Source: Actinopolyspora lacussalsi subsp. righensis (GTDB lineage: Bacteria; Actinomycetota; Actinomycetes; Mycobacteriales; Pseudonocardiaceae). From it: a DNA stretch of 64,000 bases. A program made the position numbers and the translations under genes. Of the stretch, positions 27,087 to 36,323 are shown piece after piece. Under the pieces are notes generated by a model. It did no database searches. It worked only from the letters and a program-made list of their open reading frames with translations, and was not told where the DNA came from. Numbering within the stretch: position 1 is the stretch's first letter; every line of letters starts with the position of its first letter. Where the stretch lies: the NCBI RefSeq assembly GCF_900116555.1, contig NZ_FPAT01000015.1, positions 1 to 64,000 of the forward strand, written 5' to 3'.

Positions 27087-27137
27087 ATGCAGCGCAGTAA
27101 CGACATTCTCGTACTTTCCGGGCGCGTCGACGCCTGA
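27087..27137 (+). CDS. ilvB leader peptide (Ile-Leu-Val-Leu)
   Basis: A 16-codon frame, [16 protein letters not shown], ending 97 nt before ilvB. Residues 7-10 are Ile-Leu-Val-Leu and residue 14 is Val, the end products of the pathway. The Ile, Val and second Leu codons in that run are ATT, GTA and CTT, uncommon in this GC-rich genome, which would sharpen ribosome stalling. Its last codons form the first arm of the attenuator hairpins. No ribosome site precedes it; a leaderless start is likely. The composition, position and hairpins together make it a convincing attenuation leader, as known upstream of ilvBNC in other actinobacteria. Confidence 0.85.
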
Positions 27138-27196
27138 GGAGTACGAAACGTCGACGCGCCAACCCTCGTTCGGCCCTGTGCCGGCGGGGGTTTTTT
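27121..27196 (+). terminator. Transcription attenuator of ilvBNC
   Basis: Arm 1 GGCGCGTCGACG (27121-27132) overlaps the end of the leader and pairs perfectly with arm 2 CGTCGACGCGCC (27149-27160). A terminator follows: 27163-27174 pairs with 27180-27190 (11 pairs, two G-U, one bulge) and is followed by TTTTTT (27191-27196). Arm 2 can instead pair partly with the terminator's 5' arm (27158-27163 with 27168-27174), which would act as the antiterminator when a ribosome stalls on the Ile-Leu-Val codons. Confidence 0.82.
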
Positions 27197-34337: not shown

Positions 34338-34465
34338 TTCCCCGCCACGTCCGGCCGGATCGGCCGCGCCGCTGACGGGTCGTGGCACGGATACCCCGAT
34401 TGTCCGCATCGTGGGAAGAAAGGCCCACTGCTTGGAGTGTGTCCGCGATGTGCGAGCATTGCGGC

Positions 34466-34510
34466 ATGCTCCAGTACACGACGGGCATTATTGGCAAGCG
34501 CGCCGGGTGA
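34466..34510 (+). CDS. Putative cimA leader peptide (Ile-Ile)
   Basis: A 14-codon frame, MLQYTTGIIGKRAG; starting at the in-frame ATG 34448 it would be MCEHCGMLQYTTGIIGKRAG. Residues 8-9 are two adjacent Ile codons, both ATT, rare in this genome. Isoleucine is the expected end product of citramalate synthase. The stop codon overlaps the last base of the first hairpin arm, and an intrinsic terminator follows at 34535-34565. A weak promoter TTGGAG-N16-GAGCAT (34432-34459) would make it leaderless at 34466. Function as an attenuation leader is inferred from this arrangement. Confidence 0.72.
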   Translation: MLQYTTGIIGKRAG

Positions 34511-34565
34511 CTCGACTCCGCGAACCCGGCGCGCAGACCTCTCGCATTCGCGGGGGGTCTTTTTT
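34498..34565 (+). terminator. Transcription attenuator of cimA
   Basis: Arm 1 GCGCGCCGGGT (34498-34508) pairs perfectly with arm 2 ACCCGGCGCGC (34524-34534). The terminator stem AGACCTCTCGC (34535-34545) pairs with 34550-34560 over 11 bp (two G-U) and runs into TTTTTT (34560-34565). An alternative 9-bp pairing joins 34516-34524 with 34547-34555 and would destroy both arm 1:2 and the terminator. A ribosome stalled on the Ile codons (34487-34492) would mask arm 1 and favour this antiterminator; one at the stop codon would mask 34516-34522 and favour termination. Confidence 0.78.
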
Positions 34566-34637
34566 GTGTCCACGACAGCCACAACGGGCCGTTCCAGCCA
34601 CGACCGGCCCGATCATCACCGCCCTTCTGGAGGGACA

Positions 34638-36323
34638 GTGACCCGCACCAGCCCGGCAGGGACCCCACAGGCGGACACGTTTCACGTCTACGACACGACG
34701 CTTCGCGACGGCGCGCAGCGCGAAGGCATCTCCTACTCGGTGGCCGACAAGCTCGCGGTCGCCCGCATCCTGGACAGTCTCGGCGTGGGCTTCATCGAAG
34801 GCGGTTGGCCCGGTGCGTTGCCGAAGGACACCGAGTTCTTTCGCCGGGCCACCGCCGGCGAGCTCGACCTTCGGCACGCCGTGCTCACCGCGTTCGGCTC
34901 CACACGCCGCCCCGGGGTTCCCGTGCAGCAGGACGACCAGGTAGCCGCGTTGCTCGAATCGGGAGCTCCCGCGGTCACGCTGGTCGCCAAGTCCGACAGC
35001 AGGCACATCGAACGCGCGTTGCGTACCGACGTGGCCGAGAACGGTGCCATGATCGCCGACACGGTCCGGTACCTCACCGAGCACGGCAGACGCGTGTTCC
35101 TGGATGCCGAGCACTTCTTCGACGGTTACGCCCACGATCCGGACACCGCCCTGCGGATGCTCGACGCGGCCGTGCACGCGGGGGCCGATCTGGTGTGCCT
35201 GTGCGACACCAACGGTGGGCAGCTGCCGACAGCGCTGGCCGAAACGGTGGAGGAGATCGGCCGTCGTACCGGTTTCCGGTTGGGGATCCACTGCCAGGAC
35301 GACACCGGTTGCGCCGTCGCCAACACGCTCGCCGCGGTGCAGGCGGGGGTTACGCACGTGCAGTGCACCGCCAACGGTTACGGAGAGCGGGCAGGCAACG
35401 CCGACCTGTTCCCCGTCATCGGCAATCTGGAGACGAAACTGGGACTGCCCGTGCTGCCCGAGGGAAACCTGTCCGAGCTCAGCCGGGTATCGCACGCGCT
35501 CGCCGAGATCGCCAACATCGCGCCGGACACGCACCAGGCGTACGTGGGAGGCTCCACCTTCGCCCACAAGGCCGGGCTGCACGCCAGCGCGATCAAAGTG
35601 GACCCCGAACTGTACAACCACATAGACCCCGAGCGCGTCGGCAACGGAATGCGCGTGCTCGTCACCGAGATGTCCGGCCGCGCCAGCTTGGAGCTCAAGG
35701 CAGCCGAACTGGGACTGGACCTGAGTGCGGCTCCGGACGCCATCACCGGTGCCGTGCGGCGGGTCAAGGAACTGGAAGCACGGGGATGGTCCTTCGAAGG
35801 GGCCGACGCCTCGTTGGAACTGATGCTGCGTCGTGAGATGGAACTGGCCGACGGCACCGCGGCGGAAGCGGACGTCGACGCCTCGGAAGACGTGTCGTTC
35901 GGCGCTCCCTTCGAACTGGAGTCCTACCGGGTATCGCTCGACCACCGTCCCGACGGCCAGGTGGTCTCGGAGGCGACGGTCAAGTTGCACGTGTTGCGGG
36001 AACGCGTCATCGCCACCGCCGAGGGGAACGGTCCCGTCAACGCGCTGGACGCCGCACTGCGCAAGGCACTGGTACCTCGGCTGCCGTGGTTGGACGAGGT
36101 CGAACTGGTGGACTACAAGGTGCGGATTCTCACCGACGCCTCCGGGACCGATGCCGTCACCAGGGTGCTCGTCGAGTCGCGGGACGAACACCGCGAGTGG
36201 AGCACCGTTGGTGTGCACGGCAACATCGTGGAAGCGAGCTGGTACGCGCTGTGCGACGCGTTCGCCCACAAGGCGATCCACCGGGGTGAGACGGCGGAGG
36301 TCGGCACCTCCAACACGAGGTGA
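34638..36323 (+). CDS. cimA: Citramalate synthase
   Basis: CimA condenses acetyl-CoA and pyruvate to (R)-citramalate, which LeuCD and LeuB turn into 2-ketobutyrate, giving isoleucine without threonine deaminase. The 561-residue protein has the DRE-TIM signature YDTTLRDGAQREGIS, FIEGGWPG (typical of CimA rather than LeuA), the metal-site HCQDDTGCAVAN, and the C-terminal LeuA-dimer regulatory domain (about 430-545). The GTG at 34638 has a perfect GGAGGG site. It is preceded by its own attenuator and lies between leuB and leuCD. LeuA itself is not in the window. Confidence 0.93.
   Translation: MTRTSPAGTPQADTFHVYDTTLRDGAQREGISYSVADKLAVARILDSLGVGFIEGGWPGALPKDTEFFRRATAGELDLRHAVLTAFGSTRRPGVPVQQDDQVAALLESGAPAVTLVAKSDSRHIERALRTDVAENGAMIADTVRYLTEHGRRVFLDAEHFFDGYAHDPDTALRMLDAAVHAGADLVCLCDTNGGQLPTALAETVEEIGRRTGFRLGIHCQDDTGCAVANTLAAVQAGVTHVQCTANGYGERAGNADLFPVIGNLETKLGLPVLPEGNLSELSRVSHALAEIANIAPDTHQAYVGGSTFAHKAGLHASAIKVDPELYNHIDPERVGNGMRVLVTEMSGRASLELKAAELGLDLSAAPDAITGAVRRVKELEARGWSFEGADASLELMLRREMELADGTAAEADVDASEDVSFGAPFELESYRVSLDHRPDGQVVSEATVKLHVLRERVIATAEGNGPVNALDAALRKALVPRLPWLDEVELVDYKVRILTDASGTDAVTRVLVESRDEHREWSTVGVHGNIVEASWYALCDAFAHKAIHRGETAEVGTSNTR

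Follow-up and report, generated by a model that had tools for sequence, protein, structure and literature searches.

The question raised by this locus is what the short open reading frame and the two hairpins found upstream of cimA, the gene for citramalate synthase, are doing in the window, by which is meant the whole stretch of 64,000 nucleotides analyzed here. An earlier note on this DNA had interpreted them as an isoleucine-responsive transcription attenuator. From the sequence evidence, transcription attenuation mediated by the ribosome and specific for isoleucine appears highly likely, and the leader would very probably switch the enzyme on only when isoleucine is short; an isoleucine switch is the reading suggested by the occurrence of a leader with a terminator before cimA both in the window and in most of the sampled relatives that carry cimA. 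The elements of the locus are as follows.

34432-34459, forward strand: putative sigma70-type promoter, with -35 TTGGAG at 34432-34437, a spacer of 16 nt, and -10 GAGCAT at 34454-34459
34466-34510, forward strand: leader open reading frame MLQYTTGIIGKRAG, 14 codons, from the ATG at 34466 (putative start) to a TGA ending at 34510
34487-34492, forward strand: proposed regulatory codons ATT ATT (Ile Ile), 5 nt 5' of hairpin 1
34498-34534, forward strand: hairpin 1, a perfect 11 bp with arms 34498-34508 and 34524-34534
34535-34545 with 34550-34560, forward strand: Rho-independent terminator of 11 bp including two G-U pairs, followed by a T-run to 34565
34516-34524 with 34547-34555, forward strand: candidate antiterminator of 9 bp including one G-U pair
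34638-36323, forward strand: cimA, citramalate synthase, with a GTG start and GGAGGG at 34629-34634

The identity of cimA is indicated by a TIGR00977 score of 575.3 bits relative to a cut-off of 450. The individual parts described in the earlier note are present in the window, where it had placed them: a short leader with two adjacent ATT codons, ATT being rare here (7 of the 123 Ile codons in seven coding sequences); an 11-bp perfect hairpin that begins inside the leader; and an 11-bp terminator with its T-run, which adjoins hairpin 1 directly on the 3' side. The RNA from 34466 to 34566 has a folding energy of -51.1 kcal/mol, compared to -34.3 ± 3.4 kcal/mol for shuffled sequences (n = 200; z -4.9). 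The putative promoter was not flagged by a consensus promoter scan. The absence of GGAG from the 25 nt upstream of the leader ATG, the recurrence (by eye, in 59 leaders including that of the window) of a TGTG-GCA-like -10 element about 6 nt upstream of the leader start, and the presence of C at position -1 in 49 of 59 leaders, again with the window included, together point to leaderless translation, with the 5' end of the mRNA probably on or adjacent to the leader ATG. A longer leader beginning at the in-frame ATG at 34448 (MCEHCG...) was rejected because a start 6 to 8 nt past the -10-like element recurs, by eye, in the relatives. A strong 5' hairpin (34432-34474), obtained when folding begins at 34432, was also rejected as part of the leader, since it spans the putative promoter and probably lies outside the transcript. 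By eye, only the closest relatives share the long inverted repeat that corresponds to this hairpin.

Conservation was assessed by comparing 110 cimA upstream regions drawn from the window's genome and its relatives and from named genomes. A filter requiring a short open reading frame, adjacent Ile codons, and a suitably spaced T-run is passed by 62 of the 110 regions versus 11 of 2200 shuffles, and the strict pattern ATHATH-N5-GCGC...GCGC...TTTT is found in 60 of the 110 versus 0 of 2200 dinucleotide shuffles. The strict pattern is carried by 30 of 30 regions in the window's genome and family and by 30 of 80 among the named loci. Many metagenome bins and members of other classes and phyla are among the named loci that lack it, as are Nakamurella and Isoptericola. 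Leader carriers are found in Amycolatopsis, Kutzneria, Lentzea, Saccharothrix, Pseudonocardia, Nonomuraea, Planotetraspora, Acrocarpospora, Pedococcus, Cellulomonas, Cellulosimicrobium, Demequina, and Motilibacter. From the 62 regions passing the filter an alignment of 51 rows (A2) was prepared, leaving out L088 and L101 (other stems), L023 and L050 (long loops), and L008, L009, L011, L014, L015, L041, and L043 (near-identical). In L088, from Ilumatobacteraceae, the cimA leader MKSLSASEIIIIC is accompanied by unrelated stem sequences, and is possibly an independent or far-diverged isoleucine attenuator.

Because the T-run was a selection criterion, its presence in the rows of A2 is not evidence; the rows were selected for the Ile-Ile pair and the T-run, and not for the spacing between the Ile codons and the hairpin. 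The last Ile codon is separated from hairpin 1 by 5 nt, without gaps, in 51 of 51 rows of A2 and in 60 of the 62 filtered leaders, and the conservation of the Ile codons that the earlier note had asked to see in relatives is thereby found in every row, together with the spacing. When hairpin 1 and the terminator are imposed on A2, 96.9% of cells are paired, and 11 of the 21 base pairs have changed on both sides, an extent reached by 0 of 500 shuffles; doubly changed cells number 58, compared to 11.3 ± 2.8 after shuffling. Sliding the stems by 1 to 3 columns (six slides) reduces pairing to 40-59%. For the terminator helix alone, 97.1% of cells are paired and both-side changes occur in 5 of 11 pairs. 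The four base pairs GCGC:GCGC at the base of hairpin 1 are invariant in A2, and the upper half covaries. Comparison among genomes thus demonstrates the leader, the Ile identity of its codons, their fixed spacing, and both stems, the terminator included; of the three stems in which compensatory changes were to be sought, these two display them and the third, discussed below, is not conserved in position. The covariation of the terminator stem also argues against the possibility that the leader responds to isoleucine through control that is Rho-dependent or translational, with the hairpin being secondary. This alternative draws on the antiterminator being unproven, and we consider it very unlikely.

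The position of the leader stop codon varies among leaders. Two Kutzneria cimA leaders (L037 and L038) differ by TAG versus CAG, which moves the stop from before hairpin 1 to inside it, and this difference suggests that the position of the stop is not critical. The choice of Ile codon is biased relative to the genes themselves: ATT accounts for 80 of the 154 codons in the Ile runs of leaders versus 32 of 791 Ile codons in cimA bodies (60 loci), an odds ratio of 25.6 in which related leaders are counted singly.

The codon identity of the leader can be compared with that of a second leader in the same window.

27087-27196, forward strand: ilvB leader, with an open reading frame at 27087-27137, a Leu-Val-Leu box, a GCGCG stem, and a terminator

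All 30 ilvB upstream regions fetched from family f1 contain a leader built in this way, with N5-GCGC spacing and a GCGCG stem. For 26 genomes, all of one family, both leaders were fetched, and the last two box codons of the cimA leader are Ile-Ile in all 26. Over three codons, the cimA leaders of these genomes have Ile at 68 of 78 positions (the rest being Gly at five, Asp at four, and Arg at one), versus Leu at 49, Val at 26, and Ile at three of 78 in the ilvB leaders, the box of which reads Leu-Val-Leu/Ile. The same build bears different amino-acid boxes that fit the downstream products, and this codon swap between cimA and ilvB, evident from the comparison, is the strongest codon evidence for Ile-specific sensing; the agreement between codon identity and the product of the downstream gene in the 26 paired genomes is that expected of ribosome-mediated attenuators. 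These data bear directly on an alternative in which the conserved terminator and leader open reading frame sense general translation (ppGpp, ribosome supply, or antibiotics), with the Ile codons not acting as the sensor. The variable stop position would agree with such sensing, as would the report that codon changes in the Streptomyces coelicolor ilvB leader were without effect, regulation being kept (PMC1262725). Nevertheless, the Ile identity and spacing fixed in 51 of 51 rows of A2 (of which the Ile pair was selected for and the spacing was not), the match of box to product in every one of the 26 paired genomes, and the enrichment of the rare ATT in leader Ile runs are all contrary to it, making general-translation sensing improbable.

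The possibility that the RNA itself binds a ligand, as a riboswitch recognizing a metabolite or a T-box recognizing tRNA-Ile, has a precedent in the T-boxes of some actinobacterial ileS genes (PMC1262725). It is opposed by the absence of any Rfam 15 family matching the window leader at gathering score, the search at E up to 5 returning just two chance-level matches far under their gathering scores. The conserved positions in A2, furthermore, are the Ile codons, the stem base, and the terminator arms, and a riboswitch or T-box is accordingly regarded as extremely unlikely.

For an isoleucine attenuator at cimA we infer the transcription start site, the stalling of the ribosome, and the direction of the response as follows. 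Transcription would begin on or beside the leader ATG; a ribosome would load at the leaderless end and translate the 14 codons. When Ile-tRNA is ample, the ribosome would pass the Ile codons and complete the leader; hairpin 1 or the finishing ribosome would then hold the loop and 3' arm off the terminator, which would form at 34535-34565 and keep cimA off. When Ile-tRNA is scarce, the ribosome would stall on ATT ATT and, judging from the spacing and assuming that about 12 nt are covered from the first base of the last Ile codon, would sit over the GCGC at the base of hairpin 1, which is invariant. Once freed, the loop and 3' arm may then interfere with the terminator during the passage of RNA polymerase, allowing cimA to be transcribed.

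The earlier note had proposed a 9-bp alternative pairing that would destroy the terminator, and had seen in the whole the full logic of attenuation. This pairing, 34516-34524 with 34547-34555, can form in the window once the terminator is forbidden (rank 0.04 relative to shuffled loops), but by column in A2 it pairs 42.3% of cells and is therefore not conserved in position. Thus, as far as sequence allows, an isoleucine-responsive attenuator is supported, and the pairing that had been named is a candidate for its antiterminator. A looser version of this pairing, complementarity between the hairpin-1 loop and the 3' arm of the terminator, is moderately above chance (mean z -0.74, Wilcoxon p 2.7e-4, from related rows) over the 47 distinct loops left once repeats and those shorter than 6 nt had been removed, and 10 of the 47 have a rank of 0.05 or below; the whole alternative fold is no better than with shuffled loops (mean z -0.15, p 0.26, 47 loops). 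With cover over the first 5 nt of hairpin 1, folding predicts a local 2:3 hairpin, GCGCAGACCTCTCGC, in many of the Pseudonocardiales leaders, and the mean unpaired probability of the terminator arm is 0.54, compared to 0.76 when nothing is covered. As a classical 2:3 antiterminator, GCGCAGACCTCTCGC was rejected, being no better than shuffles (best rank 0.128). Equilibrium folding retains the terminator in all 60 cimA leaders, whether the cover on hairpin 1 is 7 or 10 nt, and also in all 30 ilvB leaders when it is 7 nt (L189 having been cut at an earlier T-run). Because the terminator wins at equilibrium, a kinetic effect must be assumed if attenuation is correct; and because the terminator is also kept in ilvB leaders, which are unproven themselves though of a type supported by experiment, the equilibrium test does not discriminate.

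The distribution of the leader was examined with a covariance model (R1) built on A2, that is, on cimA leaders only, with the window sequence included. In the 4.9-Mb genome of the window, where 150 of 6410 first-look candidates were scored, R1 has one real match, at the cimA leader; the sole further match, at E 0.28, comes from that leader's stem read on the reverse strand. Across the class, R1 was run over 246 genomes with stricter filters and 18 candidates scored per genome, in a sample that may share species with the named loci behind the model. Matches at E ≤ 0.01 occur in 163 of the 246 genomes and cimA (E ≤ 1e-60) in 195; a match is found somewhere in 154 of the 195 cimA-bearing genomes versus 9 of the 51 without cimA. 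Among the 150 matches listed, 139 sit just upstream of cimA on the same strand, 120 of them at 8 to 215 nt before the start of the cimA protein match (median 56.5) and 19 added by a look-up of cimA in 23 further genomes. The remaining 11 lie at ilvB (six), leuA (one), threonine-ammonia-lyase-like PALP genes (two), and small open reading frames with weak ACT matches (two). Taken alone, terminator-like patterns are about as frequent in this 10 kb as chance would give (5 found versus 4.1 expected), as would suit a fortuitous origin of the hairpins and reading frame in G+C-rich DNA; this origin is refuted by the comparisons, namely the strict pattern in none of 2200 shuffles and the location upstream of cimA of 139 of the 150 listed matches, and its probability is negligible.

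No R1 match is found in 41 of the 195 cimA-bearing class genomes, and in the 13 cimA upstream regions read from these 41 genomes an Ile leader was not seen in any. Among 150 cimA genes listed, 30 are without a listed R1 match nearby, and 20 of their upstream regions were read, 10 of which fall in one family, f32. Thirteen of the 20 are the regions just mentioned; in the other seven the genome has an R1 match that is unlisted or away from cimA. One of these seven (L205) has a leader MTSVAMIII (leader peptides are written here without the stop) and a terminator, another (L201) has by eye a variant leader MRRSGIKIR with a GCGCG stem and terminator, and the other five have nothing recognizable upstream of cimA. 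R1 matches also occur in 56 of 61 relatives, which are not an independent sample because the model was built from relatives and named loci. Among the weakest of these, four of those fetched (L228, L229, L230, and L233; E 0.0018 to 0.0077) have no recognizable leader or branched-chain gene and look like chance matches; a further weak match (E 0.0068) is in G006. The leader would add isoleucine control to the citramalate entry of the isoleucine pathway in at least 139 of the 195 cimA-bearing genomes of the class. Amycolatopsis, one of the carrier genera, makes antibiotics. R1 can also be used for annotating such leaders, for which Rfam has no match.

Although built from cimA leaders only, R1 at E ≤ 0.01 also finds sites in front of ilvB, at distances of 12-220 nt, in 20 of the 61 relatives (best E 7.2e-10), indicating that the relatedness of cimA leaders to ilvB-type leaders is detectable in sequence and structure. 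For the ilvB leader of the window itself, R1 gives no match up to E 10. Sites at other genes are as follows.

L157 2374-2454, reverse strand: Leu-only leader MTNLLLT and terminator, directly before leuA, in one genome
L227 513-590, L231 560-628, L232 542-608: R1 matches at leuS leaders, with LLL or LLVV boxes
L150 480-567, L151 2311-2388 (reverse strand): sites at threonine-ammonia-lyase-like genes in two f32 genomes in which cimA lacks the leader
L148 2337-2417, L153 2236-2315 (reverse strand): Ile leaders MFTPRIII and MFALVIIM at small open reading frames
L226 591-671: leader MSLGLIIIDGAG before an amino-acid-dehydrogenase-like gene (NF035922, below cut-off)

The leuA leader is unlike the LEU pseudoknot element described for most actinobacterial leuA genes (PMC1262725). 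The three leuS matches have E values of 8.3e-9, 7.5e-4, and 0.0036, two of them being weak. The f32 leaders, MQRHLMAITWARD and MQLHLMAIT, contain one Ile codon each, and the family scores of the threonine-ammonia-lyase-like genes are below the curated cut-offs, so that isoleucine control of IlvA in these two genomes is a tentative reading; it may be the alternative isoleucine entry that carries the leader there. The small open reading frames have weak ACT-domain matches (E 0.19 and 0.0014, both under the Pfam cut-off) and are perhaps orphan regulatory subunits. We lean toward a single modular actinobacterial attenuator chassis that is re-aimed by swapping two or three codons. It would consist of a leaderless open reading frame, an amino-acid box, exactly 5 nt, a GCGCG hairpin, and a terminator, with the box being Ile at cimA, Leu-Val-Leu/Ile at ilvB, and Leu at leuA and leuS; perhaps it also stands before the threonine-ammonia-lyase-like gene in the two genomes that lack it at cimA. 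If correct, this would provide a natural codon-swap series revealing which codon and which distance set specificity. The paired cimA and ilvB leaders lend themselves to a comparative test of codon-specific attenuation in Actinobacteria, a group in which mutants of an ilvB leader had given ambiguous results (PMC1262725).

That no cimA attenuator has been described, as the earlier note had supposed, agrees with the literature searches, in which no paper on one was found, an earlier prediction in print being possible, and with the lack of an Rfam 15 match for the cimA leader. The elements reported by Seliverstov et al. (2005) are those of trp, ilvB, leuS, cys, and leuA, together with ileS T-boxes (PMC1262725), and a term search of that whole text finds neither cimA nor citramal-. 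Neither cimA nor citramalate occurs in the main texts of PMC10272879, PMC13236596, PMC11857589, PMC8269248, PMC4833913, or PMC2965389, and the eight Streptomyces lividans leaders of Table 4 in PMC8079986 include none for cimA. Attenuators of related kind are documented: in Mycobacterium tuberculosis, ilvB1 has a proposed attenuator, with experimental support, in which stalling at branched-chain codons leads to an antiterminator (PMC13236596); in Corynebacterium glutamicum, three competing hairpins at ilvBNC are supported by mutants (PMC11857589); and S. lividans ilvL, MRTRILVLGKRVG, is a leaderless branched-chain leader (PMC8079986).

Our verdict is that the cimA leader is a real and widespread, apparently undescribed case of the known actinobacterial branched-chain attenuators. 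Like the ilvB attenuators (S. lividans ilvL, C. glutamicum ilvBNC, M. tuberculosis ilvB1, and the Corynebacterium ilvB-II motif), it combines a leader containing branched-chain codons, a hairpin, and a Rho-independent terminator, but it differs from actinobacterial ilvB leaders in having a box of Ile only (in the window's family), a different gene, and a different terminator sequence. With the actinobacterial leuA and leuS leaders it shares a short leader of amino-acid codons, their box being Leu and that of cimA Ile. The enterobacterial trp, his, and ilv attenuators comprise regulatory codons, competing hairpins, and a terminator; compared to these, the cimA leader is probably leaderless and is without a clear 2:3 antiterminator, and the logic is shared.
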